NCBI GenBank assembly: GCA_012797975.1
Contig: JAAZOD010000004.1
Coordinates: 1 to 64,000 of the forward strand
Direction: 5' to 3'
Length of the DNA stretch: 64,000 nucleotides
Source: Pelolinea sp.
GTDB taxonomy: Bacteria > Chloroflexota > Anaerolineae > Anaerolineales > Anaerolineaceae
Part shown: one piece after another, positions 8,044 to 24,292 of the stretch
How positions within the stretch are numbered: position 1 is the stretch's first letter
Layout: every line of letters begins with the position of its first letter
Made by a program: the position numbers and the translations under genes
Notes under the pieces: model-generated
Databases searched by the model: none
The model's input: only the letters and a program-made list of their open reading frames with translations
Told to the model about the DNA's origin: nothing

Positions 8044-9114
8044 ATGGCTTCTAGAAATTGTGGGGAAATGCAACTTACATTAATGTCTATACGCAATACC
8101 AAGAATTTAAGAACATTTCTTTTTCTTTGTCTATTGATAGTGGCCACTAGTGCATGTGCTACATCCGGTTCCAGTGCGAAAGATGTTACCTATTTCAATG
8201 TTCGCTCTGCGGAAGGCAGCGGCATCATGGACTGTTCCGGAAACTGGGTTATAAAACCGCGCTCGGATGGCTATTTTACGAACGTGATGGTCGATGGATT
8301 GGCGCCTTTTTATCAGAACGGTCAAATTTCAACGCCATTTGTTTACATCAACTCAGACGGAGAGGTTGCATTCGATGCTGAATTTCGGTTGGCTGCCCCA
8401 TTCAGCGAAGGATTAGCGGCTGTGTTGGTTGAGGATCAATGGGGTTTTATCGACACAACTGGTAAATTCGCAATCGAACCGCGTTATAGCTACAGCCCTG
8501 GTGGTAATTATATCGGCAATTTTTCGGATGGATTGGTAAATGTGGTGGAAAAATATACCGTTTACCATACTCCAGAAACCTGGATCTACGTGGATAAACA
8601 GGGAAATCAAATTTTGGGACCTTATCAATCTGCAGCTTCCTTTACCAACGGTGCTGCCGCAGTTACTTTAATTACCGATGAGGTTTATAAAACCGGCTAC
8701 ATCAATCCTGAAGGAGAATTTCTGCTTGAGTTTTCGCAGGAAGAGGGCTTGGTGCCCACCGGCAGTTATTCCGCAGGCCTGTTCGCTGTCAGGGATGTCA
8801 GCCGGCAGATTGAAGAAGGGAAATGCGCCATCGGTTTCATGAACCAGGACAAGGAATGGGTCATCGAGCCGCAATTCTGCTATGTGGGTCTTTTTGTGAA
8901 CGGGTTGGCGCCGGTTTCCCGAGATGAAGCCAACTCTGCCCTGGGACCCTATGGTTACATCAACACAAAAGGTGAGAGGATGATCGACGAGGTCTACAAT
9001 TTCCCGACCAATTTCGCCGGAGGTTGCGCCCTGGTGCACTGGGATGAATTCCAGAGCAGCGGATTGATCGACAACCAGGGAAAACTGATCTATCAATTCA
9101 ATTCGGTGGAATAG
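8044..9114 (+). CDS. WG-repeat lipoprotein (356 aa)
   Basis: A secreted protein made mostly of WG repeats. After a long N-terminal region with a hydrophobic stretch (LRTFLFLCLLIVA) there is a lipobox-like ATSAC near residue 38, so it is probably a lipoprotein. At least five repeats of roughly 50 residues follow, each with a core such as WGFIDTTGKFAIEP, WIYVDKQGNQI, YGYINTKGERM or GFMNQDKEWVIEP, separated by F-x-x-GLA-type segments. WG repeats form beta-rich propeller-like surfaces, probably for binding; no enzyme activity is known. GGGGAGG lies 5 bases before the ATG chosen. An internal ATG at 8086 would also leave the signal peptide intact. Confidence 0.85.
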   Translation: MASRNCGEMQLTLMSIRNTKNLRTFLFLCLLIVATSACATSGSSAKDVTYFNVRSAEGSGIMDCSGNWVIKPRSDGYFTNVMVDGLAPFYQNGQISTPFVYINSDGEVAFDAEFRLAAPFSEGLAAVLVEDQWGFIDTTGKFAIEPRYSYSPGGNYIGNFSDGLVNVVEKYTVYHTPETWIYVDKQGNQILGPYQSAASFTNGAAAVTLITDEVYKTGYINPEGEFLLEFSQEEGLVPTGSYSAGLFAVRDVSRQIEEGKCAIGFMNQDKEWVIEPQFCYVGLFVNGLAPVSRDEANSALGPYGYINTKGERMIDEVYNFPTNFAGGCALVHWDEFQSSGLIDNQGKLIYQFNSVE

Positions 9115-9138
9115 TACATTTACACAACTGCAGAATAA

Positions 9139-9210
9139 GTGGCTAACAGGTTTTGAACCCACACCCCTTGATCCACAGTCAAGTGTTCTGCCATAAGAGG
9201 GTATATTCCA
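9139..9210 (-). pseudogene. Decayed tRNA-His copy (3' part only)
   Basis: Read on the - strand, this matches the intact tRNA-His at 9280-9352 from the D-loop through the GTG anticodon arm and T-arm into the 3' acceptor strand. About 39 of 41 positions are identical across the core, with one base deleted in the variable region. The 5' acceptor strand is absent, so no cloverleaf can close, and the T-stem has mismatches. Only the 3' part of the tRNA is kept, the usual pattern left by integration at a tRNA 3' end, so it may be a remnant attachment site. A failed tandem duplication is the other explanation. Confidence 0.75.
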
Positions 9211-9242
9211 ATACGTGATATTTCAGGACAATATTCATTAAT

Positions 9243-9278
9243 AAAAAGAGAGGACTGTTTTTTCAGTCCTCTCTTTTT
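9243..9278 (-). terminator. Terminator downstream of tRNA-His
   Basis: A perfect 15-bp stem (AAAAAGAGAGGACTG with CAGTCCTCTCTTTTT, 6-base loop) sits one base past the tRNA 3' end on the - strand and ends in a T-run. It closes the hisS-tRNA-His unit and separates it from the decayed tRNA copy. Confidence 0.92.
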
Positions 9279-9279
9279 G

Positions 9280-9352
9280 GGTGGCTGATGGGGGTCGAAC
9301 CCACAACCCCTTGATCCACAGTCAAGTGCTCTGCCATTGAGCTACAGCCACC
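9280..9352 (-). tRNA. tRNA-His (anticodon GTG)
   Basis: On the - strand a full cloverleaf can be drawn: 7-bp acceptor stem GTGGCTG/CAGCCAC, D-arm GCTC...GAGC, anticodon stem CTTGA/TCAAG around loop CTGTGGA with anticodon GTG, and T-stem GTGGG/CCCAT with loop TTCGACC. An extra 5' G opposite C73 is encoded, the identity element of histidine tRNAs. The 3' CCA is not fully encoded. It lies 17 bases downstream of hisS on the same strand, so the tRNA and its own synthetase are probably on one transcript. Confidence 0.95.
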
Positions 9353-9369
9353 ATGTGGATTGCATTGTA

Positions 9370-10653
9370 TCATGAGCCATTTTTAGCGGCAAGCCATTCG
9401 CCGACTTTTTTCTCCAACTCCGCATTGGGGAAGGAAACCTGCTCGCGGGAAGCCAGGTCCTTCAAGACCACTTCCCCTCTTTGCAGTTCATCAGGGCCGA
9501 TGACCAGCGCACCCTTGAAACCGCAGCGGTCGGCATATTTGAATTGCTTGCCCAATTTATCCGCTTCGGGATAGAGAGCCGCCGGGATCCCTGTTGCGCG
9601 CAACCGGTTGCACAGAGCAACGGAAGCCGGCAAACTGGCTTCGTCAAAAACCGTCACCAGCAGACTGGTCGGTGTGGTGGTCAATTTCGGTGCCTTTCCA
9701 TGGCTTTCCAGCACTAATGGAAAAACCACATCGCCCATCGCAAAACCCACACCGGGCAGTGATTCCCCGCCCACATCCGCCACCAGGTTGGCATAGTGCC
9801 CGCCACCCAGGATGGCGCGGTGATTTTCACCCAGGTCTTTAGCTTCAAACACCACTCCGGTGTAATAATCCAGCCCGCGGATGATGCGCGGATCATAACT
9901 GGCATAATCGCTCAGTCCATACATGTCCAGAATATGCATGATCGTGGTGAGCTTTTCCGATTCATGCCACAGGTCTTGATTCTGGATCAATTTTTGGATC
10001 GCATCCAATTGTTGAGCGGTCAGCCCTGATTCCAGCACATACGCATCCCAGCCCTGTTCCGAAAGTTTATCCTTGCGGTCGATCAATTTAAAGATCAGCT
10101 TATGCTGTTCCAAAGGAAAACCCGCCTTGAGCAGTTCGTTTTCCATAAGCTGCCGATCGTTGAAATAGACACACACTTCGTCTTTGGTCAGACCGGCTTT
10201 TTGAAAGAAGGTCGCACACAATGCGATCACTTCTGCGTCGGCCTGTGTGGAATCCACCCCGATCAGATCAGCGTTCCATTGGAAGAATTCCCGTGTACGC
10301 CCTTTTTGCGGTTTTTCATAGCGCCAGAAAGGACCAAAAGACCACCAGCGCAGCGGGAACACCAAAGCGTTTTGGCGCTGGGCGACCATGCGCGCCAGGC
10401 TGAGGGTAAGTTCAGGGCGCAGGGTGATCTCGTTCCCTCCCCGATCTTGAAACACAAAGGATTGTTCCTTGACCAGTTCCTCCCCCGACTTGGCAGCATA
10501 TAGCTCCAGGGTTTCCAGAAAAGGTCCGTCATATTCCTGGTAGCCAAAGGATTCGGACACCTCACGAATCAGTGCATACAACCACTGGCGTAAAACCATA
10601 TCTTCAGGGTAGAATTCGCGTGTGCCTTTAACAGATGGGATAATGTTTTTCAT
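9370..10653 (-). CDS. hisS: Histidyl-tRNA synthetase
   Basis: Class II synthetase that charges tRNA-His in the cytoplasm. The 427-residue product has motif 1 around KGTREFYPEDM, motif 2 with GPFWRYEKPQKGRTREFFQ, the HisA signature IRGLDYYTGVVFEA in the middle, and a C-terminal anticodon-binding domain (about residues 325-427, with the strand LLVTVFDEA). The ATG at 10653 is chosen because MKNIIPSVKGTREF matches the family N-terminus; the frame is open 15 codons upstream without a better ribosome site. The gene is followed at once by tRNA-His on the same strand. I saw no T-box leader upstream. Confidence 0.96.
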   Translation of the reverse strand: MKNIIPSVKGTREFYPEDMVLRQWLYALIREVSESFGYQEYDGPFLETLELYAAKSGEELVKEQSFVFQDRGGNEITLRPELTLSLARMVAQRQNALVFPLRWWSFGPFWRYEKPQKGRTREFFQWNADLIGVDSTQADAEVIALCATFFQKAGLTKDEVCVYFNDRQLMENELLKAGFPLEQHKLIFKLIDRKDKLSEQGWDAYVLESGLTAQQLDAIQKLIQNQDLWHESEKLTTIMHILDMYGLSDYASYDPRIIRGLDYYTGVVFEAKDLGENHRAILGGGHYANLVADVGGESLPGVGFAMGDVVFPLVLESHGKAPKLTTTPTSLLVTVFDEASLPASVALCNRLRATGIPAALYPEADKLGKQFKYADRCGFKGALVIGPDELQRGEVVLKDLASREQVSFPNAELEKKVGEWLAAKNGS

Positions 10654-10732: not shown

Positions 10733-11098
10733 ATGAACATATCAGAGTTAATGAATCACACCCAGGGGAAACTTCTCACCAAAGAGAGCAGCATCGATCC
10801 AGATGAAATCATCAATGGCGGCTGCAGCGCAGACCTGATGAGCGACGTACTGGCCTACATCCAGCCACACGCTGTTTTATTGACCGGACTGGTCAATCCG
10901 CAAGTGGTGCGCACTGCCCAAATGGCAGATGTGGCAGCCATCGTTTTTGTGCGCGGAAAAATACCGCCGGAAGAAACCATTCGCCTTGCCGAAGAGGCGC
11001 AGATCCCCCTGATCAGTTCTCCGTTGGGCATGTATGAGCTATCTGGTCGCTTATATCAGACAGGATTGCCAAGTCTGGAGAACGCGATCGAAGAATAA
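10733..11098 (+). CDS. DRTGG domain protein (hydrogenase locus accessory, copy 1)
   Basis: This 121-residue protein consists of a single DRTGG domain, a small alpha/beta fold whose ligand is not firmly known. Recognisable parts are the N-terminal helix, GGCSADLMSDVLAYIQP around residue 29, the strand-turn HAVLLTGLVNPQVVRTA, the hydrophobic strand VAAIVFVRGKIPPEETI and the end LISSPLGMYELSGRLY. A paralogue lies at 12123-12464 with the CBS-HATPase gene between them. Such genes recur next to Hyd/Hnd hydrogenase genes in other anaerobes as I recall, so a role in sensing or regulating the hydrogenase is likely but unproven. A TATAAT at 10698-10703 may be its -10 box. Confidence 0.85.
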   Translation: MNISELMNHTQGKLLTKESSIDPDEIINGGCSADLMSDVLAYIQPHAVLLTGLVNPQVVRTAQMADVAAIVFVRGKIPPEETIRLAEEAQIPLISSPLGMYELSGRLYQTGLPSLENAIEE

Positions 11099-11105
11099 AA
11101 ACTCC

Positions 11106-12119
11106 ATGAGAGATTTAGATTTCAACGACCAGCCTCCCCGCTTCAAAGGAAAAGTGATCACCGATCAACTTGCCGGAAGCATTACACGGGTGGAGGAATT
11201 GGCGTACATCATCCGCATTGAAGAGGTGATGACGAAAAAGCTCATCACCGTTCCGCCGGATGCCAGCATGCAGCTCGTGGCGGAACTGATGCGCGTCAAA
11301 CACATATCCGGTGTTCTGGTGACAAAAGATGAAGCGCTGGTAGGCCTGGTCAGCACCGAAGATCTCATCAAATGCCTCATCAATGGAGAATTATCCGCTC
11401 CGGTCAGCCAGTATATGTCTACGGAGCTGGTCACCCTGAATTCTTTCGATTTTCTCACCGAAGCGCTGAAAACCTTTGCCCGCACCGGCTTGGGACGTCT
11501 GCCGGTGCTGGACGAACAGAAAAAACTGGCTGGCATCATTACCAAAGGAGATGTCACTTACGGGTTTTTAAAAGCACTGGAGCACGATTATCATGAAGAG
11601 GAAGTGCGCCGCTATCGCGCATCGCATCTCTTCGAAGATATTGAATCGGATCGCACCAGTTTGATTCTGCGCTATGTGATCAAGCATTATGATTTTATGC
11701 ATGGTGGAGCCGCATCCAGCAATATCAAAAAAGCGCTGCTGCGCTTGGGCGCCAATCCACAACTGGCACGGCGTGTGGGTATTGCAGTCTATGAAGCGGA
11801 GATGAACCTCATCATTCATACCGATCACGGTGGTTCCATCCATGTGGAAATTGAACCGCACCAGATCAGCATCTATGCCTGGGACGACGGGCCGGGCATT
11901 GCAGATACAGAGGAAGCTATGAAACCAGGCTACTCCACCGCTTCCGAGGAGATCCGCGAATTGGGATTTGGAGCCGGAATGGGTCTTTATAACATCTCGC
12001 GTTGTGTGGATGAGATGAAATTGGAATCGGAATTGGGCAAAGGAACCCAACTCACCATGAAAGTATTTCTCAAAGAAGATGAAACGGTCGGTGAAGGTTA
12101 TCAATCAGAAAAGGAGTAA
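11106..12119 (+). CDS. CBS-pair protein with HATPase (anti-sigma-factor-like kinase) domain
   Basis: Cytoplasmic signalling protein of 337 residues with two parts. Residues about 35-165 form two CBS domains (VMTKKLITVPPDASMQ and YMSTELVTLNSFDFLTEA), which usually bind adenosine nucleotides. Residues about 205-330 form a GHKL ATPase like the RsbW/RsbT serine kinases, with N box EAEMNLIIH, G1 box DDGPGI and G2 box GFGAGMGL. No histidine kinase phospho-acceptor domain or receiver is present. The ATG at 11106 follows the end of the DRTGG gene by 7 bases; an upstream open stretch overlaps that gene and is unsupported. The next DRTGG gene starts 3 bases after its stop. An energy- or redox-charge switch acting on hydrogenase expression or activity is a reasonable inference. 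Confidence 0.87.
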   Translation: MRDLDFNDQPPRFKGKVITDQLAGSITRVEELAYIIRIEEVMTKKLITVPPDASMQLVAELMRVKHISGVLVTKDEALVGLVSTEDLIKCLINGELSAPVSQYMSTELVTLNSFDFLTEALKTFARTGLGRLPVLDEQKKLAGIITKGDVTYGFLKALEHDYHEEEVRRYRASHLFEDIESDRTSLILRYVIKHYDFMHGGAASSNIKKALLRLGANPQLARRVGIAVYEAEMNLIIHTDHGGSIHVEIEPHQISIYAWDDGPGIADTEEAMKPGYSTASEEIRELGFGAGMGLYNISRCVDEMKLESELGKGTQLTMKVFLKEDETVGEGYQSEKE

Positions 12120-12122
12120 AAA

Positions 12123-12464
12123 ATGACACTTGAGCAGATCATTCAATCCCTGGAACTTGAGGTTCTAACCGCTCCCAAAGAAGTCTCCGAGATCACCCCC
12201 ACCAGCGGCTATATTTCAGACATGCTCAGTTGTGTAATGACCGGAGCTAAAAATCAGAGCATCTGGGTCACCCTCCAATCGCACAACAATATCGTAGCGG
12301 TGGCCTGCCTGCTGGATGTGGCGGCCATCATCATCACGGAAGGTGCCAAACCGGATGATGAAACCATCCAAAAAGCCAAAGACGAAGGGGTTGTGCTGCT
12401 TTCCACACCGCATAATTCCTTTTATGTGGTGGGAAAGTTATGGGAAATGGGCATCCGCGATTAA
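12123..12464 (+). CDS. DRTGG domain protein (hydrogenase locus accessory, copy 2)
   Basis: A 113-residue single-domain DRTGG protein paralogous to the product of 10733-11098. Matching blocks include LDVAAIIITEGAKPDDETI and the C-terminal LLSTPHNSFYVVGKLWEMGI. AAGGAGT just before the ATG is the ribosome site, inside the end of the CBS-HATPase gene, so the pair is translationally close. The protein has a conserved GYISDMLSCVM helix (about residue 35), as in the first copy. Ligand and partner are unknown. The four-gene order DRTGG, CBS-HATPase, DRTGG, PHP suggests one signalling unit. Confidence 0.85.
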   Translation: MTLEQIIQSLELEVLTAPKEVSEITPTSGYISDMLSCVMTGAKNQSIWVTLQSHNNIVAVACLLDVAAIIITEGAKPDDETIQKAKDEGVVLLSTPHNSFYVVGKLWEMGIRD

Positions 12465-12497
12465 ATCGTGGATGTTTTTTATACGGCAGTTTAATCC

Positions 12498-13241
12498 TTG
12501 AAAACATTCCGGGCTGAACTCCATATCCATAGCGTGCTTTCACCCTGTGCGGCGGTGGAAATGATCCCGCCGATCATCGTTTCTGCAGCGCTACAGCATG
12601 AGATCAATCTGATCGCCATCACCGATCACAACCAGGTTGCTAACGTCCAAGCCGTTCAAAAAGCAGCCGAGGGCAGCGGATTGACCGTGCTGCCGGGTAT
12701 GGAACTGCAAACAAAAGAGGAAGTACATTCCTTGTGTCTGTTCGATACGCTGGAACAGAGTCAAGCATTTCAAAAAATTGTATCTGCCCATTTGCCCCCT
12801 TTAAAAAACAATCCCGAATTTTTCGGGGAACAGTTTGTGGTCGATTTCAGCGGTGAGTTCATTCGCAACGAAGAACAGCTCTTGATCGTCTCCAGCGATC
12901 TCTCCCTCACCGAAGCGTTCAAGATCGTCACTGGATTGGGAGGGTTGTTCATTCCCGCGCATGTGGATCGGGTAAAATTCGGCTTGCTGCCCGTACTGGG
13001 TATGGTGCCCACGGATATTCCCCTGCATTGCCTGGAGATATCGCGACATGTTTCCCCCGCCCTGGCCATACAACTATACCCACAACTGAAGCACCATGTA
13101 TTGATCCAGGGCGGTGATGTCCACCATCCGGATGAATTTCTAGGTGCAACTTGCTTTAACATGGAAGAACCGACCATTCACGAGATCAAGCAGGCCATGC
13201 AGCACCAAAATGGACGCAGTGTTTCAATTTTTTCCCCATAA
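12498..13241 (+). CDS. PHP domain metal-dependent phosphoesterase
   Basis: This 247-residue PHP protein has the full set of expected metal ligands: HIHS near residue 10, TDHN near 42, GMELQ near 66, EEVHS near 74, PAHVDR near 155 and a C-terminal GGDVHHPDE. PHP proteins are hydrolases acting on phosphate esters or nucleotides, and the substrate here is unknown. The start is a TTG at 12498, 34 bases after the second DRTGG gene; no better ATG precedes the HIHS motif. It closes the accessory quartet directly before the hydrogenase genes. A role in turning over a nucleotide signal bound by the CBS or DRTGG proteins is speculative. Confidence 0.88.
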   Translation: MKTFRAELHIHSVLSPCAAVEMIPPIIVSAALQHEINLIAITDHNQVANVQAVQKAAEGSGLTVLPGMELQTKEEVHSLCLFDTLEQSQAFQKIVSAHLPPLKNNPEFFGEQFVVDFSGEFIRNEEQLLIVSSDLSLTEAFKIVTGLGGLFIPAHVDRVKFGLLPVLGMVPTDIPLHCLEISRHVSPALAIQLYPQLKHHVLIQGGDVHHPDEFLGATCFNMEEPTIHEIKQAMQHQNGRSVSIFSP

Positions 13242-13290
13242 ACACCCCTCTTTTGTTCACACTTTTTCCGTTATTATCGTTCCATAGAAA

Positions 13291-13309
13291 TATCATTGTA
13301 AACATGATA
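13291..13309. repeat. Short inverted repeat before the hydrogenase genes
   Basis: TATCAT and ATGATA are separated by 7 bases, about 40 bases before the first hydrogenase gene. It could be an operator, but it does not match the FNR or Rex consensus and could occur by chance in this AT-rich stretch. Confidence 0.25.
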
Positions 13310-13348
13310 AAATCACTTGATTTAATAAAAAGTAACCCGGTGAAAGTA

Positions 13349-13870
13349 ATGGAAACTGAAAAATTAAATACCGTACTCTTCAATCCCCTTCAGGACGCAA
13401 AAGCAAAAGCCGAAATTGACGCAATTCTCGAAAAGAACAAGGATAAACCAGGTAGCATCATGGTCATCCTCAACGAATTGCAGAATACAGTTGGCTTCGT
13501 CTCTGAGGAGCTTCAACAATATGTGGCAGATTATCTGCACACGCCCGTCAGCAAGATCCACGGCGTCATCTCCTTCTATTCTTTCTTCACCACCCAACCG
13601 CGTGGCAAACATATCATCAAAATCTGCCTGGGTACCGCCTGTTATGTAGGCGGTGCTTCACAATTAATCGAGAAGATCAAACAACTTATCGGGATCGGTC
13701 CTGGCGAAACCAACGCTGATTGGACCATTACGGTGGAAGAATGCCGCTGCGTGGGTGCCTGCAGTCAGGCACCGGTAGTGGTGATCGATGATGAAATTCA
13801 CGGACGCGTCAAACCCAGCACTCTAGCCAAACTGCTCCGTACGATTACAACCGAAGAGAAGATAGCGTAA
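13349..13870 (+). CDS. NuoE-like [2Fe-2S] hydrogenase subunit (HndA/HydC type), copy 1
   Basis: A 173-residue thioredoxin-like [2Fe-2S] subunit that hands electrons to or from the NuoF-like flavin subunit in soluble hydrogenases. The cluster ligands are C-x4-C in KICLGTACYVGG and C-x3-C in EECRCVGACSQAP; an extra Cys precedes the second pair. A helical N-terminal domain (NELQNTVGFVSEELQQYVAD) precedes it, as in NuoE. The ATG at 13349 is chosen for its length and for METEKL; earlier in-frame ATGs at 13253 and 13304 lie in the likely promoter region. It is followed by an HATPase gene, an HndB-like gene and a NuoF gene, an order typical of Hnd/Hyd-type bifurcating hydrogenases. Confidence 0.93.
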   Translation: METEKLNTVLFNPLQDAKAKAEIDAILEKNKDKPGSIMVILNELQNTVGFVSEELQQYVADYLHTPVSKIHGVISFYSFFTTQPRGKHIIKICLGTACYVGGASQLIEKIKQLIGIGPGETNADWTITVEECRCVGACSQAPVVVIDDEIHGRVKPSTLAKLLRTITTEEKIA

Positions 13871-13880
13871 TGGAGCGGTG

Positions 13881-14444
13881 ATGAAGGAGCTTTCACTTCA
13901 TATTCTGGATATTGCCGAGAACAGTGTTTCAGCAAATGCCAAGACAGTATCCATCGAAGTGGAAGAAGACAGTCAAAATAACCTGCTCACCATAATCATT
14001 ACAGACGATGGAAAAGGCATGGATGCGGAAATGCTCGCTCGGGTAACGGATCCTTTTACAACCACGCGCACAACGCGAAAAGTGGGATTAGGTATCCCTT
14101 TTTTCAAGGAAGCGGCTGAAGCTTGCAATGGTCATTTTGCGATCGCTTCCACTCCGGGCAGAGGGACGCGTGTGGAAGCCAGTTTTCAACGCGATCACAT
14201 CGACCGCATGCCCATGGGATCCATCCAGACCACATTCTTGGATCTGCTGGTAGGATTCCCCGATATCCATTGGAAATTTAAGTATAGAATTGATGAGGAG
14301 GAGTTTGACTTCGATAGTGAACCCGTTCGTAAAACCCTGGATGGGATTCCCTATTCAGATCCAACCGTCCTTAAATATTTAAAAGATGAAATCGATTTTG
14401 GAATACAAAAAATACAGAGTGTTCACAAACAGGAGATGCCATGA
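13881..14444 (+). CDS. Stand-alone HATPase (GHKL) domain protein in hydrogenase operon
   Basis: A 187-residue protein with one GHKL-type ATP-binding domain in its N-terminal two thirds: N box DIAENSVSANA (about residue 10), G1 box ITDDGKGMD (about 45) and G2 box GLGIPFFKEAAEACNG (about 72). No phospho-acceptor His, receiver or sensor domain is present. The last 70 residues are an acidic tail seen in relatives from hydrogenase loci. It lies between a NuoE-like and an HndB-like gene, overlapping the latter by four bases (ATGA). A GGAG site is 5 bases before the ATG. Such proteins recur in [FeFe] hydrogenase operons; their job, regulatory or chaperone-like, is not established. Confidence 0.88.
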   Translation: MKELSLHILDIAENSVSANAKTVSIEVEEDSQNNLLTIIITDDGKGMDAEMLARVTDPFTTTRTTRKVGLGIPFFKEAAEACNGHFAIASTPGRGTRVEASFQRDHIDRMPMGSIQTTFLDLLVGFPDIHWKFKYRIDEEEFDFDSEPVRKTLDGIPYSDPTVLKYLKDEIDFGIQKIQSVHKQEMP

Positions 14445-14843: not shown

Positions 14844-16625
14844 ATGGCTTATTTTCGTTCGCATGTTCTTGTCAGCAATGACCCGGCCATCCTGAAAGAG
14901 GGTGGAGCAGAAGTAAAAGACGCATTGTTGAATGAGATCAGAAAAAACAAATTGTCGGGTGAAGTCGAAATCATTGACACTCCCCGGATCAGCGATGGCA
15001 AGCAGGGTCCAGAGATCATGGTCTACCCCGAAGGGTATCATTACATCGGTTTAAGCGCAGCAGATATTCCATTTCTGGTCGAAGAACAGTTCTTAAAAGG
15101 CAGAGCAGTTGAAAAATTCCTGGCACCCACACCCAGAGAAAAGGCGCAGGAACTTCGTGCACCCACTCCCAAGGAAGTACGTGTGGTATTGCGCAACTGC
15201 GGCAAGATCAACCCGGAAAACATCGAAGAATACATTGCAGAAAACGGGTATGTAGCCCTTGCGAAAGTACTTACGGAGTGTACACCGGATGATGTACTTG
15301 CAATCATTAAAGCATCCGGATTGCGCGGTCGTGGCGGTGCAGGGTTCCCAACCTGGTTGAAATGGGACCTTACCAAAAAAGCCACCGGTTCACCCAAATA
15401 CCTGATATGCAATGCCGATGAAGGTGATCCTGGCGCGTTCATGAACCGTTCAGTGCTTGAAAGTGATCCGCACTCGGTCATCGAAGGAATGATCATCGCT
15501 GCCTATACCATTGGAGCCAGTCAGGGGTTCGTGTACTGTCGTGCAGAATACCCGATTGCAGTGAAAACGTTGAACATCGCCATTGAACAAGCCCGCAATT
15601 ACGGTCTACTGGGAAAGAATATTTTTGGCACCGATTTTTCCTTTGATATGGAAGTGCGAAAAGGTGCAGGTGCCTTTGTATGTGGTGAAGAAACCGCACT
15701 CATCAGCTCCATTGAAGGAAAACGCGGAGAACCATATCCCAAACCACCCTTCCCTGCAACCCAGGGTGTCTTTGGCAAACCAACCAACATTAATAACGTA
15801 GAGACTTATGCCAATATCCCCCAGATCATCTTCCGCGGTCCTGAGTGGTTCGCGTCCATGGGCACTGAAAAAAGCAAAGGTACCAAGACCTTTGCCATGG
15901 CTGGTGATGTGAAACAAACCGGCCTGATCGAGGTGCCCTTTGGCATCACGCTGCGCGAGATCGTCTATGATGTCGGCGGTGGTATCAAGGATGATAAGGG
16001 ATTCAAGGCCATCCAGACCGGTGGCCCCATGGGTGGTTGTCTTCCATCCATGTACCTGGACCTGCCGGTTGATTATGAATCCCTGACCTCTGCCGGTTCC
16101 ATGATGGGTTCCGGTGGTATGGTGGTCATGGATGAAGACACCTGCATGGTAGATATTGCCCGTTTCTTCATGGAATTCACTCAGGCAGAAAGCTGCGGTA
16201 AATGTGTGCCGTGCCGTGTTGGCACCAAACGTATTCTCGAGATCCTCACCCGCATCTGCGATGGAAAAGGGAAAGATGGCGATATCGAAACTCTGGAAAT
16301 GTTATGCAGCCAGACCATCGAGAACAGTTTGTGTGGCTTGGGCAAAGGCGCAGCCAATCCGGTGATCAGCACGCTGAAACATTTCCGCAGTGAATATGAA
16401 GCCCATATCTATGATAAGAAGTGCCCGGCAAAAACCTGCAAGGCGCTCATCCATTATGAAATCAATCCCGAAAAATGCGTGGGCTGCACCATGTGCGCCA
16501 GGAACTGCCCAGTAAATGCCATTACTGGTTCACCCAAGCAAACGCATGTCATCAATCCAGATATTTGTATCCGTTGCGGTATTTGTAAACAGGTCTGCAA
16601 CTACGAGGCGGTCGTAGTGACATAA
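14844..16625 (+). CDS. NuoF-like NAD(P)H/FMN hydrogenase subunit with C-terminal 2[4Fe-4S] domain (HydB/HndC type)
   Basis: A 593-residue flavoprotein that exchanges electrons with NAD(P)H. Residues 1-95 form a thioredoxin-like domain with no cysteine, so its usual [2Fe-2S] cluster is lost. The FMN/NAD core follows, with GRGGAGF (162-168) and NADEGDPGAF (190-199), the bifurcating-type version of this loop. A [4Fe-4S] site ESCGKCVPCRVG with a distal Cys comes next. At the end are two 4Fe-4S motifs (Cys545, 548, 551, 555 and 575, 578, 581, 585), the extra domain found in HydB/HndC. GGAGGA lies 13 bases before the ATG; a TTG at 14823 would be an alternative start. It is the best candidate for the flavin bifurcation centre of this complex. 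Confidence 0.94.
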   Translation: MAYFRSHVLVSNDPAILKEGGAEVKDALLNEIRKNKLSGEVEIIDTPRISDGKQGPEIMVYPEGYHYIGLSAADIPFLVEEQFLKGRAVEKFLAPTPREKAQELRAPTPKEVRVVLRNCGKINPENIEEYIAENGYVALAKVLTECTPDDVLAIIKASGLRGRGGAGFPTWLKWDLTKKATGSPKYLICNADEGDPGAFMNRSVLESDPHSVIEGMIIAAYTIGASQGFVYCRAEYPIAVKTLNIAIEQARNYGLLGKNIFGTDFSFDMEVRKGAGAFVCGEETALISSIEGKRGEPYPKPPFPATQGVFGKPTNINNVETYANIPQIIFRGPEWFASMGTEKSKGTKTFAMAGDVKQTGLIEVPFGITLREIVYDVGGGIKDDKGFKAIQTGGPMGGCLPSMYLDLPVDYESLTSAGSMMGSGGMVVMDEDTCMVDIARFFMEFTQAESCGKCVPCRVGTKRILEILTRICDGKGKDGDIETLEMLCSQTIENSLCGLGKGAANPVISTLKHFRSEYEAHIYDKKCPAKTCKALIHYEINPEKCVGCTMCARNCPVNAITGSPKQTHVINPDICIRCGICKQVCNYEAVVVT

Positions 16626-16648: not shown

Positions 16649-17128
16649 ATGACAAGTCAGACAGAGATTGCCGTTAGTGTGACCGAAGCAGTCCAGAACG
16701 CCCTGGATTATTACGAAAAAAAAGAAGAGGAACTCATCCCGATCCTTTCCAAAGTAAACCGGGAACTGGGTTTCCTCCCCCAGGAAGCGCTGGAACAGAT
16801 CAGTGAGAAGCTGAAAGTACCAAAAAGCAAAGTGAAATCTGTCGCGAGTTTTTATCACATGCTCTCGACCAAACCACTTGGCCGGCACGTAATCAAATTC
16901 TGTGAAAATGCTCCCTGTCATGTGGCGGGGGGCGGTGAAATCTGGTCTGCGCTCAAAGACGCCACCCATTTGCAAGCAGGCGAAACAAGCCCCGATGGGA
17001 AATGGTCGCTGGTTACAACCAGCTGTCTCGGCCTCTGTGCCGTAGGTCCGGTAATGGTGATCGACGGGGATGTTTATGGAAACTTGACTGTCGATAAAGT
17101 ACCTGAAATTTTGGGACGTTACGAATAG
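16649..17128 (+). CDS. NuoE-like [2Fe-2S] subunit, copy 2 (HoxE-like)
   Basis: A second NuoE-type subunit, 159 residues. The N-terminal helical part (KVNRELGFLPQEALEQISE) is followed by the [2Fe-2S] motif: C-x4-C in KFCENAPCHVAGG and C-x3-C in TTSCLGLCAVGP. AGGAGG lies 9 bases before the ATG. It is only loosely similar to the first NuoE copy of this operon, so it is not a recent duplicate. It is followed 11 bases later by the second NuoF gene, so the pair forms its own diaphorase module (HoxE-HoxF style) inside the hydrogenase operon. Confidence 0.93.
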   Translation: MTSQTEIAVSVTEAVQNALDYYEKKEEELIPILSKVNRELGFLPQEALEQISEKLKVPKSKVKSVASFYHMLSTKPLGRHVIKFCENAPCHVAGGGEIWSALKDATHLQAGETSPDGKWSLVTTSCLGLCAVGPVMVIDGDVYGNLTVDKVPEILGRYE

Positions 17129-17139
17129 GAGATGAGATC

Positions 17140-18783
17140 ATGAAAAACTATCGATCGATGGTACTGATTTCTAACGACCCACACAGCATGGTTCAGGGTG
17201 CGCAAGAAATTTTTGATTGTATAAAAACGGAAGTGAAGAAGTATCAATTGGAAGATGAAGTTTCGATCGCAATGGCATCCGATATCAGTCGGATGGATAT
17301 CGCACCCGTTGTGGTCGTTTATCCCGAAGCAGTGGTATATGGACCGATGAAGATTGAGGATGTTCCCTTCCTGGTGGAAGAACATCTTTACAAAGGTCGC
17401 GTTGCGAACCGATTACAGGCGCCCAAGAAAGCATTGTCCGGTCCGATTGCCTGGCTTTCAGCGCGTGAAGGTTCCTTACCTGCTGAACAACGCATCGTTC
17501 TGGAACGCGCCGGGGTCATCGATCCCGAATCGATCGATGACTATATCATTCATGATGGTTATCAAGCACTGGGAAAAGCGCTTGGCGAGATGAAGCCCGA
17601 GGACGTGATCGCCACCCTCAAGAATTCTGGATTGCGCGGTCGCGGTGGTGCCGGATTCCCCACCGGGTTGAAATGGAGTTTTGTAGCCGGCGTCAAGAGC
17701 GATAAAAAGTATGTGGTCTGCAACGCAGACGAAAGCGAACCGGGTACCTTCAAAGACCGCCTGATCCTCGAAGGAGATCCTCACTCCATCATCGAAGCCA
17801 TGATCATTGCCGGCTATGCCATCGGCGCGGATGAAGGTTACATCTACGTGCGCGGCGAATATGAACTGGCACAATCCCGATTAAAGACAGCCATTCAGCA
17901 AGCCAAAGAATATGGCATGCTGGGAAAAAACATCTTCGGTTCCGCTCATTCCTTTGAACTGCATGTGCATGCCGGAGCCGGAGCGTACGTCTGCGGTGAG
18001 GAGACTGCTTTGCTGGAATCTATCGAAGGCAAACGCGGAGAACCGCGCCCGCGCCCACCCTATCCGACCACGGATGGGCTGTGGGGCAAGCCAACCCTCA
18101 TCAACAATGTAGAGACATTGGCGAATGTCCCTGCCATCCTGCGGCATGGCGCCGATTGGTTCAAGACCTTTGGAACACCTTCCAGTCCCGGCACCAAGGT
18201 CTATACCATTCTGGGCAATGTCAACAAAACCGGATTGGTGGAAGTCTCTATGGGAATCACCTTGCGCGAGGTCATTTCGATCTATGCCAAGGGTATGAAA
18301 AGTGGAGCGACCTTTAAATTGGCACAGACCGGCGGATCCAGTGGGTCCATCATCCCGGCCAGCCTGCAAGATACCCCCATGGATTATGATTCCTATGCCA
18401 AAGCAGGGGTATCCCTTGGTTCGGGAGCTTTGCTGATCTGCAGTGAAGAAACCTGTGTGATTGACCTGGCAAAAGTCTTATTGCAATTCTTTAAATTTGA
18501 GAGCTGCGGCAAATGCAACCCCTGCCGCATCGGAAATATCCGCGCCCTGCAAACCTTGGACCGCATTTCCGAAGGACTGGGAACGGCACAGGATATTGAA
18601 ACCCTGCAGTCGATCAGCAAGAATCTGTATGAAATGTCGAACTGTGGTCTTGGGCAAACCGCCGGCGCACCGCTGAAAGATATCATCAATCATTTCCGCG
18701 CTGAAGTTGATGCCCACATTAAATTGAAAGTTTGCCCCGCCGGTGTTTGCGCAATGAGCGGGCAATCCAATCTCTACAAATAA
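17140..18783 (+). CDS. NuoF-like NAD(H)/FMN subunit, copy 2 (HoxF/NuoF type)
   Basis: A second FMN/NAD-binding subunit, 547 residues. It differs from the first in having the ordinary NuoF loop NADESEPGTF (195-204) after GRGGAGF (167-173) and in ending shortly after the [4Fe-4S] region (ESCGKCNPCRIG and a distal Cys), without the 2[4Fe-4S] tail. Its N-terminal thioredoxin-like domain (1-95) holds a single Cys, so it cannot bind a [2Fe-2S] cluster in the normal way. It probably reacts with NAD(H). With the preceding NuoE-like subunit it could be a second entry point in the same complex or serve another partner. Confidence 0.93.
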   Translation: MKNYRSMVLISNDPHSMVQGAQEIFDCIKTEVKKYQLEDEVSIAMASDISRMDIAPVVVVYPEAVVYGPMKIEDVPFLVEEHLYKGRVANRLQAPKKALSGPIAWLSAREGSLPAEQRIVLERAGVIDPESIDDYIIHDGYQALGKALGEMKPEDVIATLKNSGLRGRGGAGFPTGLKWSFVAGVKSDKKYVVCNADESEPGTFKDRLILEGDPHSIIEAMIIAGYAIGADEGYIYVRGEYELAQSRLKTAIQQAKEYGMLGKNIFGSAHSFELHVHAGAGAYVCGEETALLESIEGKRGEPRPRPPYPTTDGLWGKPTLINNVETLANVPAILRHGADWFKTFGTPSSPGTKVYTILGNVNKTGLVEVSMGITLREVISIYAKGMKSGATFKLAQTGGSSGSIIPASLQDTPMDYDSYAKAGVSLGSGALLICSEETCVIDLAKVLLQFFKFESCGKCNPCRIGNIRALQTLDRISEGLGTAQDIETLQSISKNLYEMSNCGLGQTAGAPLKDIINHFRAEVDAHIKLKVCPAGVCAMSGQSNLYK

Positions 18784-20641: not shown

Positions 20642-21184
20642 ATGGCAAAACCCAAAGTAGCAAGTGACTGGCTGTGCGGCTGCGCTGGCTGTCACATGTC
20701 CTTTTTGGATATTGATGAGAGGATCGTCAAACTGGTGGAGCTGGTTGACCTGCGTTCAACCCCCATTACCGATCTGAAACATCCTGATGCCGGTGGCGTG
20801 GACGTCGGCATTTTGGAAGGCGGAATCAACAATACATACAATGAAGAAGTTGCCAAGATGATGCGCAAACGCGCCAAGATCCTGGTCGCACTGGGTGACT
20901 GTGCCGTGTTCGGCGGTGTTCCAGCCATGCGTAACTTCTTCACCATTGAAGAATCGTTGAAACGCGCCTACGTCGAAACAGAAAGTACTGATTCCAACGG
21001 ACTGGTACCCAATAATCCGGAACTGGCAACCATGACTCGCGTACGCGCCATCCATGAAGTCGTGCCGGTGGATATTTACATTCCTGGTTGCCCACCTGAT
21101 GCAGATATCATTTTTTATGCATTAAGCGAACTGGCGCAGGGTCGCATGCCTGATCTGAAGAACGACAATCTGATGTGGAATTAG
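20642..21184 (+). CDS. [NiFe] hydrogenase small subunit (HoxY/HydS-like)
   Basis: A 180-residue small subunit that carries the proximal [4Fe-4S] cluster next to the [NiFe] site. The ligands are seen in CGCAGCHMSF (Cys12, 14, 17), ALGDCAVFGG and IPGCPPDAD, as in HoxY and the related NuoB family. It is short and has no twin-arginine signal or membrane anchor, so it is cytoplasmic, in line with group 3 hydrogenases. GAGGAG precedes the ATG. The large subunit gene follows after 19 bases. Confidence 0.93.
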   Translation: MAKPKVASDWLCGCAGCHMSFLDIDERIVKLVELVDLRSTPITDLKHPDAGGVDVGILEGGINNTYNEEVAKMMRKRAKILVALGDCAVFGGVPAMRNFFTIEESLKRAYVETESTDSNGLVPNNPELATMTRVRAIHEVVPVDIYIPGCPPDADIIFYALSELAQGRMPDLKNDNLMWN

Positions 21185-21203: not shown

Positions 21204-22628
21204 ATGACACAAAAAATTACTATTGAACCCGTCACCAGGATCGAAGGTCACGCCAAGATCACCATCAATGTCAAAGAAGATGGCAGTGTAGAACATGCCT
21301 ATTTGCATGTCAACGAGTTTCGTGGTTTTGAAAAATTCTGCGAAGGGCGCATGGTGTTTGAAATGCCCCTCATCACTCCCCGCATTTGCGGTATCTGCCC
21401 GGTAAGCCATCACCTGGCATCAGCCAAAGCGGCTGATGCTGCCCTGGGTGTTGAACCACCCCGCCCGGCATCGCTGTTGCGCGAATTGATGCACATGGGG
21501 CAGGTCATTCAAAGCCATGGTATGCACTTTTTCGAACTGGCAGGCCCTGATCTATTGCTGGGTTGGGATGCCGATCCGGCCGTGCGCAATGTGGTTGGGA
21601 TCATTCAAGCCAATCCATCCCTGGCTTTGCAGGCAGTGAATCTACGCAAATTCGGCCAGGAGATCATCAAGACCGTAGGCGGCCGCAAGATCCATCCCAA
21701 CTTTGCCGTACCCGGCGGTGTGAACAAGGCATTAACTGTGGAAGAACGTGATATGATCCTTTCCGGTTTGGATGCCAACATCGCCACCATCAAAGCTGGA
21801 TTGGAACTGTTCAAAGGTTGGGCAGCGCAACATACTGAGGAGATCGCGGAATTCGCCACCTTCTCCTCCGGCTACATGGGCTTGGTAACTCCCGCAAACG
21901 GTCTGGAATTGTATGATGGCAACATCCGCATGGTGGATAAAACCGGGAAACAACTGGAATTATTCCCCGCTTCCAATTATCTCGACAATATTGCCGAGCA
22001 TGTGGAAGATTGGTCTTATTTGAAATTCCCCTACTATCGCAAAATGGGCTGGCCGGCCGGAGTTTACCGCGTTGGACCCCTGGGTCGGTTGAATACCTGT
22101 GAAAAAATCGAAACACCTTTGGCACAGCAAGAATTCGTCGAATATCACAAGATCAACAATGGGAAACCGATCGAGAATACACTTTATTTCCATTATGCCC
22201 GCCTGATCGAAGCGCTCTTTGCAGCTGAAAAAGTGGGAATCCTGCTGAACGATCCCGACATCCTTTCCAAAGATATCCTCAACACGCATCACAACTATCA
22301 AGGTGAAGGCATTGGTGTGATCGAAGCGCCCCGTGGAACCCTCTTCCATCATTATTGGGTCGATAAGAACGGTCAAATCAAGAAAGTCAACTTGATCGTA
22401 GCCACCGGCAATAATAACTGGGCGATGTGTGAAGCAGTGGATAGCGTTGCGAAGCGGTACGTTAAAGGTCCTGACATCACGGAAGGTATGCTGAACCGTG
22501 TGGAAGCTGCCGTTCGTGCACACGATCCCTGTTTAAGCTGCTCCACTCATGCGGTGGGAGAAATGCCCATGATCGTGGAAGTTCGCGATCTGCAGGGTAA
22601 CCTGCTGAACGTGGTAAAACGCGGCTGA
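21204..22628 (+). CDS. [NiFe] hydrogenase large subunit (HoxH/HydL-like)
   Basis: A 474-residue catalytic subunit that binds the Ni-Fe(CN)2CO centre and splits or makes H2. Both cysteine motifs are intact: L1 [11 protein letters not shown] (Cys62, Cys65) and L2 DPCLSCSTH (Cys443, Cys446, His449). It ends with a 25-residue extension after His449, the part normally removed by a specific protease once nickel is in place; the protease gene follows directly. The lack of export signals and the soluble NAD-linked partner subunits argue for a group 3 (3d-like) enzyme or the HydABCSL bifurcating type. Phylogeny would be needed to decide between them. Confidence 0.95.
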
Positions 22629-22656: not shown

Positions 22657-22687
22657 GACGGTGCCACAGGATCAGCTTGGCACCGTC
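22657..22687 (+). terminator. Hairpin after the large subunit gene
   Basis: A perfect 10-bp stem GACGGTGCCA/TGGCACCGTC with an 11-base loop lies 29 bases past the stop, followed by a weak T-rich tail (TCTTTGTG). It may attenuate transcription into the maturation genes or stabilise the hydrogenase mRNA. Confidence 0.55.
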
Positions 22688-22711
22688 TCTTTGTGTGAGC
22701 GGTACAATGAA

Positions 22712-23221
22712 ATGATGAGAAAGAGATTTATCATTGTAGGGTATGGGAATCCAGATCGCGGGGACGACGGGGCGGCCTGTCACCTGCTGGATCAACTTGT
22801 TCTGACGTTAAGCAAAAGAACGGAAGATCTAAATGAATTCCACGAATCCGGATTTTTGGAGTTGAATGCCGAGGTCGACTTGTGGTACAACCTGCAACTC
22901 ATTCCTGAAATTGCCCAGGACCTTGCCCGGTATGAGAACGCCATCTTCGTTGATGCACATACCGCCGAGATCCCCGAACCAATCCTGGTCAAAGAAATCA
23001 CCCCCGCCTACAAGAATTCTCCCTTCACCCATCATCTCACCCCTGCCAGTTGTCTGGAATTGGCTGAGAAACTTTATCAGCATGCACCGCATGCCATTTT
23101 GGTCACCGTGCGAGGTTATTCCTTTGATTTTTCGCGCGAACTTTCACCAGAAACAAAAGAGTTGACCGGGCAGGCTGTGCAGATGGTGATCGATAGACTT
23201 CACAAGAGTGAAAAGGCATAA
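22712..23221 (+). CDS. [NiFe] hydrogenase maturation protease
   Basis: Cytoplasmic endopeptidase of the HycI/HoxW family that trims the C-terminal extension of the large subunit. The 169-residue protein begins with the family signature GYGNPDRGDDG (about residues 9-19, the first Asp/Glu nickel-sensing site) and has VDAHT near residue 90 and the HHLTP His motif near 108. It lies directly after the large subunit gene, which carries the matching extension. Two adjacent ATGs (22712 and 22715) are possible starts; no strong ribosome site is seen. Confidence 0.9.
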   Translation: MMRKRFIIVGYGNPDRGDDGAACHLLDQLVLTLSKRTEDLNEFHESGFLELNAEVDLWYNLQLIPEIAQDLARYENAIFVDAHTAEIPEPILVKEITPAYKNSPFTHHLTPASCLELAEKLYQHAPHAILVTVRGYSFDFSRELSPETKELTGQAVQMVIDRLHKSEKA

Positions 23222-23269: not shown

Positions 23270-23614
23270 ATGCACGAACTAGCAGTTACCGAAGAAATAT
23301 TGCACAAAGCAGAAGAGATCGCCCTACAAGAACATGCGCTCAGGGTGACGGATATCTATCTGCAGATCGGCAAATTATCAGGCATCATCGATGAATCAGT
23401 ACAGTTTTACTGGAATGCGCTCTGCGAAGACACCATTTGTGCACAAGCCAATCTGCATTTCGAGGCGGTCCCTGCATTGATCGACTGCAAGGATTGTGGG
23501 AACCAGTATGAACTTGACCATGATCTCATCCCCTGCCCCGCATGCAGCAGCATGAATCTGAAAATCGCGGGCGGAGAAGAGTTCATCTTGAAAAGCATTG
23601 AAGTTGAAAAATGA
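23270..23614 (+). CDS. hypA: Hydrogenase maturation nickel metallochaperone HypA
   Basis: HypA delivers nickel to the hydrogenase large subunit together with HypB. The 114-residue protein starts MHEL, with the N-terminal Met-His-Glu nickel site, and has the zinc finger pairs CKDC and CPAC in the C-terminal third. The length and order are normal for the family. It is the first gene of a complete maturation cluster (A, B, F, C, D, E). No Shine-Dalgarno site is visible and a -10 box lies directly upstream, so translation may be leaderless. Confidence 0.96.
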   Translation: MHELAVTEEILHKAEEIALQEHALRVTDIYLQIGKLSGIIDESVQFYWNALCEDTICAQANLHFEAVPALIDCKDCGNQYELDHDLIPCPACSSMNLKIAGGEEFILKSIEVEK

Positions 23615-23626
23615 AAGAAGGAATCT

Positions 23627-24292
23627 ATGCCGACCAAACGTATCGAGATCGTTCAGGATATTCTGAACGTCAATGACCAAATCGCCGAAGAAACCAACGC
23701 GTTGCTGCACACCAAACATATTTTTTCTATGAACATCATGGCTTCGCCCGGAGCAGGCAAAACCAGTGTGATCTTGCGCACGCTGCAGGAACTTTCTCCC
23801 CTGGTCCGCTGTGCGGTGCTGGAAGGAGACACTGCACCGGTCACCATCGATGCGGAAAAAGTCTCCGGCATCGGTATTCCGGCCATTCAGATCAATTCGG
23901 GTGGAGATTGTCATCTCAACGCAAATTTGGTGCGCAAAGGGATCCAATCGTTGGATCTGGACGCGCTCGATCTTATCCTGGTAGAAAACATTGGAAACCT
24001 CATCTGCCCTGCATCCTGGAAGCTGGGAACGGATATGAACGTGGTCATCGCCAGCATTCCCGAAGGAGATGACAAACCCTATAAATACCCCAATATATAC
24101 CGCGGTATTCAAGCCCTGGTTCTTAATAAAATCGACCTAAAGCCGTATGTCGATTTCAACATTCAGTATTTCAAAGATGGCATCGCAGCGCTGAATCCGG
24201 GTGTTGAATTCTTTGAAGTCTCCGCCAAGACCGGGGAAGGCATCACGGCATGGGCGGAATGGCTCAGAAAAAAGATCCACGATCTTCGGTAA
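23627..24292 (+). CDS. hypB: Hydrogenase nickel incorporation GTPase HypB
   Basis: A GTPase that powers nickel insertion with HypA. The 221-residue protein has the P-loop ASPGAGKTS (about residue 41), the metal-binding and switch region LEGDTAP followed by GGDCHLNA, NLICPA, and the base-recognition motif LNKIDLKPY. It lacks the His-rich N-terminal nickel store of some HypB proteins, so it is the transfer-only form. It is 12 bases after hypA. Confidence 0.96.
   Translation: MPTKRIEIVQDILNVNDQIAEETNALLHTKHIFSMNIMASPGAGKTSVILRTLQELSPLVRCAVLEGDTAPVTIDAEKVSGIGIPAIQINSGGDCHLNANLVRKGIQSLDLDALDLILVENIGNLICPASWKLGTDMNVVIASIPEGDDKPYKYPNIYRGIQALVLNKIDLKPYVDFNIQYFKDGIAALNPGVEFFEVSAKTGEGITAWAEWLRKKIHDLR

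Follow-up and report, generated by a model that had tools for sequence, protein, structure and literature searches.

A conserved cassette of putative signalling genes at a predicted electron-bifurcating [NiFe] hydrogenase operon of Pelolinea sp.

Electron-bifurcating enzymes stand at the crossing of NADH, ferredoxin and H2 in anaerobic metabolism, and we know of no mechanism by which they are switched. The subject of this study is a set of five accessory genes in a [NiFe] hydrogenase operon of Pelolinea sp. (Chloroflexota, Anaerolineaceae), located in a stretch of 64,000 nucleotides that is called the window below (GCA_012797975.1, contig JAAZOD010000004.1, positions 1 to 64,000). They encode two DRTGG domain proteins (DRTGG1 and DRTGG2), a CBS pair fused to a SpoIIAB-like HATPase (CBSH), a PHP-family phosphoesterase (PHP) and a lone GHKL HATPase. 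With moderate confidence, we propose that these genes make up a signalling cassette, driven by ATP and found mostly alongside electron-bifurcating enzymes with a HydB/HydC/HydD core, which works by the mechanism set out below.

Parts of such a set have been described before. The HydABCSL hydrogenase of Acetomicrobium mobile consists of five subunits, and its operon carries HydD, HydP and HisK as extra genes, for which a role in maturation, regulation or both is assumed (PMC8880783). A NuoG-like HydA without an H-cluster, HydB, HydC, HydS and HydL are common to this enzyme and the window, as are the kinds of extra genes (PMC8880783, PMC9304861), and the best PDB match of HydL adds to the likeness. 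Compared by description, the window has in addition a second NuoE/NuoF pair and the upstream genes for DRTGG1, CBSH, DRTGG2 and PHP, and its lone HATPase is probably the counterpart of HisK. Processing or regulatory genes are marked in a figure legend of PMC9304861, the main text of which does not contain the words "kinase", "CBS" or "PHP". A gene list of this kind for an [FeFe] enzyme has already been published: the [FeFe] hydrogenase operon Halsa_1862-1871 of Halanaerobium hydrogeniformans holds the same kinds of genes, including PHP and two HATPase-type kinases (PMC4237134). Judged from that gene list alone, it presents the order seen in Bacillota (see below) in reverse, with an [FeFe] enzyme and with a group D [FeFe] protein instead of the CBS pair; the function, the DRTGG identity and the conservation of the set are not discussed in the accessible part of that paper.

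Group D proteins are putative H2 sensors whose route of signal transduction was left open (PMC8163306), and group D genes have been reported together with a kinase upstream of bifurcating hydrogenases (PMC3561251, PMC3608648). Unlike the locus of the group D (M2e) protein TamHydS, the operon in the window has no group D gene at that place and carries a CBS pair fused to the HATPase; DRTGG, PHP and CBS go unmentioned in the accessible parts of the TamHydS papers (PMC8163306, PMC3561251, PMC3608648). In Sporomusa, spoIIAB and hndB are among the genes near hydrogenase genes, according to a figure legend (PMC12003927). Recognition of a conserved cassette, naming of the DRTGG proteins and replacement of the CBS pair were not found in the literature searched, which left subscription journals mostly uncovered, so that an earlier description of the replacement is possible.

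A conserved cassette with changing catalytic partners

Profiles built from named relatives were run against 199 Anaerolineae genomes. CBSH was found in 61 of these, PHP in 55 and DRTGG1 in 57, and CBSH was also present in 54 of the 55 genomes with PHP and in 57/57 of those with DRTGG1. CBSH has PHP within 3 kb in 46/61 cases and DRTGG1 within 2 kb in 55/61, some of the remainder being on short contigs. The order DRTGG1, CBSH, DRTGG2, PHP is repeated in loci of many phyla. This arrangement is far beyond chance, and the genes constitute a conserved cassette. Members are also fused to each other: PHP to the lone HATPase in six loci (L052, L063, L075, L185, L192, L193), the SpoIIAB-like HATPase to DRTGG2 in nine loci (as judged with our own profile; Pfam lists no DRTGG domain for the one that was scanned, L221), the same HATPase to a group D protein in L220, and group D to DRTGG2 in L194 and L199. 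Simple inheritance within operons, without any functional link among the genes, would agree with the incomplete linkage to HydB in Spirochaetota and Thermotogota; in view of the near-perfect co-occurrence in Anaerolineae, the order kept across phyla and the fusions between members, it is extremely improbable.

The nine HATPase-DRTGG2 fusions belong to Spirochaetota (L221 at 8749-9904, and L223-L230) and fall on one supported branch. In the stretches read, these loci hold DRTGG1 and the fusion only, without a CBS pair, a group D protein or recognised hydrogenase genes, and represent the barest form of the transducer.

A scan of named genomes, of which the best 80 of 534 relatives were used, was made with CBS-bearing queries and hence favours CBS forms. 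By their record titles, the 80 loci belong to Chloroflexota, Planctomycetota, Desulfobacterales and other Deltaproteobacteria, Cloacimonadota, Neomarinimicrobiota, Spirochaetota, Thermotogota, Nitrospirae, Delongbacteria and Pelotomaculum, among others. HydB, HydC or HydD is encoded on the same strand in 63 of them. The catalytic partners are [NiFe] in 16 loci, [NiFe] with HdrA-like in 9, HdrA-like in 10, Mo-formate-dehydrogenase-like in 9 and [FeFe] in 2; in 34 none was seen, which partly reflects contig ends as many of these loci end early. Further gene neighbourhoods, chosen and not random, were read for 20 of the 61 Anaerolineae matches, selected for missing HydB or HydL, plus 6 from another search, for 40 Bacillota regions out of 77 match rows (75 genomes), for all 15 CBS-less and 5 CBS-bearing rows of Spirochaetota, and for Thermotogota in 20 of the 81 genomes. 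Partners were labelled with profiles based on one or a few loci.

With [NiFe], Mo-formate-dehydrogenase-like, HdrA-like and, less often, [FeFe] partners, the cassette does not follow an H-cluster catalyst. The H-cluster domain PF02906 occurs in 14 of the 199 Anaerolineae genomes; it is missing from 49 of the 61 genomes with CBSH and is never on the same contig as CBSH (0/61). On these counts, a simple rule tying the set to catalytic [FeFe] enzymes was rejected. HydB matches are present in 56/61 genomes with CBSH vs 88/138 other Anaerolineae, and HydB lies within 8 kb of CBSH in at least 41/61 (HydB matches down to E 6.9e-182). Among the best 46 rows for the HydABCSL-type large subunit (E to about 1e-176), 35 of the 46 genomes carry CBSH, compared with 26/153 for the others (p 2e-13). 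The suggestion of the earlier note that the set serves the diaphorase module and not the H-cluster is upheld as far as independence of the catalyst and the variety of partners go; the part that held less well is taken up with the points weighed below.

Two further arrangements were met among the partners. In L010 (13066-18782), a relative from the same family, a formate-dehydrogenase-like subunit of 927 amino acids, a NuoG-like protein and HydS follow one HydB/NuoF set, with a transporter-like open reading frame (ORF) in between; a joint formate/H2 complex is possible. Several Planctomycetota and other loci, such as L067 (3402-4280), encode a HydC-type protein fused to an HdrA-like N-terminal part (label HDRA-C).

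CBS pair or group D protein at the same HATPase

A search of 199 genomes of the phylum to which Pelotomaculum belongs (Bacillota) gave matches in 75, and 68 of the 77 match rows span the HATPase half of CBSH only. Among the 40 Bacillota neighbourhoods, 35 have a short HATPase without a CBS pair, and in 33 of these 35 the next gene encodes a group D protein; a group D protein accompanies one of the five CBS-bearing forms. The neighbour is mostly 400-475 residues long, and longer where fused. Two N-terminal [4Fe-4S] motifs, an Fe_hyd_lg_C domain and a C-terminal FeS motif were observed in the five Bacillota copies scanned; altogether, the Fe_hyd_lg_C Pfam domain was found in 6/6 scanned neighbours, none of which matched a PAS domain at E 0.001. 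In 39 neighbours from Bacillota and Spirochaetota, the four H-cluster cysteines are kept in 37/39, a cysteine at the proton-transfer position in 0/39 (one gap) and a C-terminal Cx2Cx4Cx16C motif, given as a feature of M2e (PMC8163306), in 39/39. The H-cluster cysteine counts are based on an alignment; simple regular expressions missed most group D proteins, and a later one recovered 26/40. Its domain and cysteine motifs make the neighbour a probable [FeFe] hydrogenase of group D (M2e).

The remainder of the cassette is largely kept. DRTGG2, PHP and a match to the lone HATPase (a few of these in larger proteins) were each found in 31 of the 35 CBS-less Bacillota loci, together with HydC in 23, HydB in 23, HydD in 22, a catalytic [FeFe] subunit in 17 and formate dehydrogenase (FDH)-type genes in 2. 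In L220, the HATPase and group D share one frame, which is followed by DRTGG2, PHP, the lone HATPase, HydC, HydD, HydB and a catalytic [FeFe] HydA. With group D in place of the CBS pair in Bacillota, the set can thus include an H-cluster protein in the role of sensor.

The same division emerged from a count over 180 non-identical HATPase domains, in which four duplicate sequences had been merged. The 130 HATPases with a CBS pair are followed by DRTGG2 (102), PHP (5), another gene or a gap of more than 1.5 kb (9), nothing annotated (13) or group D (1; that is 1/117 once the 13 without an annotated follower are left out). For the 50 without a CBS pair, the next gene encodes group D in 38 cases (one fused), a fusion with DRTGG2 is present in 9, DRTGG2 is next in 2, and 1 has another neighbour. 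Three Spirochaetota genomes (G580, G686, G706) carry both a CBS-bearing and a CBS-less copy; the CBS-less copy of G580 (L222) is without group D. It is quite possible, although we hold to it only tentatively, that there is one transducer with interchangeable sensors, either CBS (probably for adenylate) or group D (for H2), which tunes the HydB/HydC/HydD core whatever the catalyst.

Protein features and the proposed mechanism

The earlier note had described CBSH as a CBS pair fused to an anti-sigma-type kinase domain, which agrees with the Pfam matches to PF00571 and PF13581; against the anti-sigma F model TIGR01925 the protein scores 53.3 bits, below the NCBIfam equivalog cut-off of 135. In the predicted structure (pLDDT 85.5, pTM 0.55), the two halves, of unsure relative placement, match CBS pairs and SpoIIAB in fold, and matches of the CBS half include AMP/ADP-bound CBS proteins, e.g., AcuB. 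Residues S83/D86 and T146/D149, which we take to be the [ST]-x-x-D nucleotide motifs of the pair, are kept in most of 80 proteins (S83 75/80, D86 76/80, T146 78/80, D149 72/80). On the general understanding of CBS domains, this conservation fits binding of adenosine or a nucleotide. In the HATPase domain, E232, N234, D260 and the four G-box glycines are present in 180/180 sequences and E230 in 179/180, with and without CBS, so that ATP should be bound and used in both settings.

CBSH has the GHKL fold, the ExxxN and G boxes and a predicted structural match in common with the SpoIIAB/RsbW anti-sigma kinases, from which it differs in its score under the curated cut-off and in the fused CBS pair. 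A transcriptional partner switch, in which the SpoIIAB-like HATPase would hold or release a sigma factor via an anti-anti-sigma protein, would draw on the anti-sigma F match, the SpoIIAB fold and the intact kinase residues; with the score as far under the cut-off as it is, such a switch seems very unlikely.

The two DRTGG proteins are paralogous, as the earlier note had stated (hhalign 99.9 %, E 4.7e-31). Both weakly match models of CBS-DRTGG pyrophosphatases, a family that is regulated by adenylates. Like the window, these family II enzymes (structures of the regulatory insert, 3l2b/3l31) combine CBS and DRTGG; in the window the domains are on separate proteins, a HATPase accompanies them and no pyrophosphatase domain was matched. 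Nine PHP residues, which we take to be metal ligands, are nearly invariant (H9, H11, D43, H44, E69, H155, D207 and H209 in 69/69 relatives, H77 in 68/69), in line with the earlier claim that all ligands are present. The weak pyrophosphatase matches and the conserved CBS motifs and PHP residues could also point to a second-messenger loop of the kind guessed in the earlier note, with CBS and DRTGG reading a nucleotide messenger that PHP destroys. Such a loop is quite unlikely: of the 61 Anaerolineae genomes with CBSH, 7 have no PHP, and 6 of these still carry DRTGG1.

The lone HATPase consists of a HATPase_c domain at 9-104 of its 188 residues followed by an 80-residue C-terminal part. Its Pfam matches are to HATPase only and the model shows this domain beginning at the N-terminus, without a dimerisation/phospho-acceptor (DHp) domain; the earlier note was right in this respect, and a two-component histidine kinase, which would have a DHp domain with a phospho-acceptor histidine, was rejected. 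D11, N15, D43, G45, G47, G70, G72 and D109 are kept in 60/60 relatives. The model (pLDDT 93) is closest in fold to the N-terminal domains of MutL/PMS2 (MutL: Z 13.4, rmsd 2.9, 135 residues). This likeness, the presence of the cassette at a shared core under several catalysts and the maturation or regulation role assumed for HydD, HydP and HisK in A. mobile could be read as signs of an assembly or maturation module, in which the two GHKL ATPases would load clusters or flavin into HydB/HydC/HydD, or dock these subunits, with CBS and DRTGG as a scaffold. However, GyrB rows score nearly as high (Z 12.3), so that the fold says little on the role; a part alternating between CBS and group D [FeFe] would be odd for an assembly factor, and 19/20 Thermotogota cassettes have no HydB/HydC/HydD in the stretch read. 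We regard this explanation as unlikely.

In the ATP-driven signalling cassette that we favour, the CBS pair would read an adenine nucleotide as a measure of cellular energy and would gate the fused HATPase. The latter may be a serine/threonine kinase or an ATP switch acting on the paired DRTGG proteins. PHP would reverse the mark or clear the ligand, together with the lone HATPase, its fusion partner in some genomes, and the output would set the activity or the assembly of the HydB/HydC/HydD core. In Bacillota and some Spirochaetota, where the same HATPase has no CBS pair and is followed by group D or fused to it, the transducer would read H2; at the [NiFe] locus of the window, the sensor would be the CBS pair. 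Gene order, co-occurrence, the intact ATPase, CBS and PHP residues and the change of catalytic partners and of the sensor are direct observations.

A number of points weigh against this proposal. The ligand, the kinase substrate and the target of the cassette are those that we infer, and the fold of the lone HATPase, nearer to MutL/GyrB than to kinases, would suit a conformational role. As to the sensor, 12 of the 50 CBS-less forms have no group D (the nine HATPase-DRTGG2 fusions, L211, L215 and L222), L176 carries both a CBS pair and group D, and in Spirochaetota L216-L219 the short HATPase and group D are followed by no recognised DRTGG2 or PHP. Catalytic [FeFe] genes were likewise seen on the same strand as CBS forms (L015/L073, L039, L180), and FDH-type genes accompany group D at L195 and L203, so that the pairing of sensor with catalyst is not strict; the former loci rule out a restriction of CBS to settings in which an H-cluster cannot be made. 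On a quickly made HATPase tree, the best topology has 6 changes of sensor, with 1 independent pair on well-supported branches; the swap is clustered by clade and may rest on very few events. As to the core, HydB/HydC/HydD were found at 31/40 Bacillota, 2/20 Spirochaetota and 1/20 Thermotogota loci, to which contig ends contribute, and the genomes with the stand-alone cassettes L093 and L094 hold 5 and 3 HydB-like genes. A two-gene form of DRTGG1 and CBSH adjoins HdrA/Mvh-like and [NiFe] small and large subunit genes without HydB/HydC/HydD (L059, L126, L132). Linkage of the cassette with HydB/HydC/HydD is thus common but incomplete, and a rule that the set always adjoins HydB fails in the counts for Anaerolineae, Spirochaetota and Thermotogota. 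Independence of the H-cluster is not clear-cut either: 12 of the 14 Anaerolineae genomes with PF02906 carry CBSH, against 49/185 others (Fisher p 1.6e-5). It is this association and the incomplete linkage that qualify the assignment to the diaphorase module.

The operon in the window and the meaning of the cassette

The features of the operon are collected in Table 1. Pfam and the ORF coordinates agree with the earlier description of five accessory genes, their domains and their very short spacings; all five are open and on the forward strand. They were said to precede or interrupt the hydrogenase genes, and their placement in the operon is as described, but the set is not contiguous, since the catalytic HydC separates PHP from the lone HATPase. 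The gene of the latter overlaps the next one by 4 bases. CBSH has an alternative start at 11034, with CBS matching at 93.3 bits over two stretches (cut-off 24) and HATPase_c_2 at 39.4 bits (cut-off 27.4). Each of D34, L35, M36, S37 and D38 of DRTGG1 is present in at least 95 % of 73 relatives, and the family motif of DRTGG2 is GGYxSDxLScVM...TLQxHxNIxAVA (conservation over 67 relatives). The closest CBSH in the scan of named genomes, with 92 % identity, is from Anaerolineaceae UBA4781 (Chloroflexota).

Table 1 Features of the hydrogenase operon in the window
Feature	Coordinates	Strand	Evidence
DRTGG1, 121 aa, stand-alone DRTGG domain	10733..11098	+	PF07085 32.5 bits, cut-off 25.2; family motif DLMSD...TGLxNPQ
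CBSH, CBS pair fused to SpoIIAB-like HATPase, 337 aa	11106..12119	+	PF00571, PF13581
DRTGG2, 113 aa, DRTGG1 paralogue	12123..12464	+	PF07085 33.8 bits, cut-off 25.2
PHP-family phosphoesterase, 247 aa	12498..13241	+	PF02811 34.1 bits, cut-off 26.4; putative metal ligands intact
HydC/NuoE-type [2Fe-2S] subunit, first copy	13253 (or later; start uncertain)..13870	+	PF01257 157 bits
Lone GHKL HATPase, 188 aa	13878..14444	+	PF02518 59.1 bits, HATPase_c cut-off 26.4; conserved C-terminal part HxDRxPxG
HydD-like small thioredoxin-type [2Fe-2S] protein, 122 aa	14441..14809	+	PF01257 27.1 bits, cut-off 24.8
HydB/NuoF-type subunit, two C-terminal [4Fe-4S] motifs	14847..16625	+	PF01512, PF10589, Fer4
Second NuoE-type subunit	16649..17128	+	PF01257 161 bits
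Second NuoF-type subunit, without Fer4 match	17140..18783	+	PF01512, PF10589
NuoG-like HydA subunit, 607 aa	18787..20610	+	TIGR01973 335 bits, below cut-off 470
[NiFe] small subunit HydS	20642..21184	+	VhuG-like match over residues 3-173
[NiFe] large subunit HydL	21204..22628	+	best PDB match 7t2r_D, E 5e-166
Hydrogenase maturation protease	22661..23221	+	TIGR00072 53 bits, cut-off 47.45
hypA and hypB	23270..24292	+	names from sequence reading alone
ORFs reading as hypF, hypD, hypE	after hypA/hypB, up to 29030		names from sequence reading alone

HydB with its NuoF core and C-terminal [4Fe-4S] motifs, HydC, a NuoG-like HydA without an H-cluster domain, HydS and HydL are found together, by which the operon is assigned to the [NiFe] HydABCSL type (Bfu / NiFe-HydABCSL) and its enzyme is predicted to be bifurcating. 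[FeFe] models match HydA in its N-terminal iron-sulphur part only, and the H-cluster part of these models is unmatched. There are two NuoE-type and two NuoF-type subunits. Many other loci of Chloroflexota (L017-L022, L024, L025) also have the second pair (16649-18783 in the window), which was not found in L012, L031 and L038.

If true, the model of a transducer with a socket for either sensor would supply the output that the group D H2 sensor has so far lacked, for which the cassette names the HATPase, DRTGG1, DRTGG2 and PHP as candidate partners. The CBS version would be an H-cluster-free form of the same transducer and amenable to study in vitro, and replacement of the sensor would give a concrete route to test the control of bifurcating enzymes.

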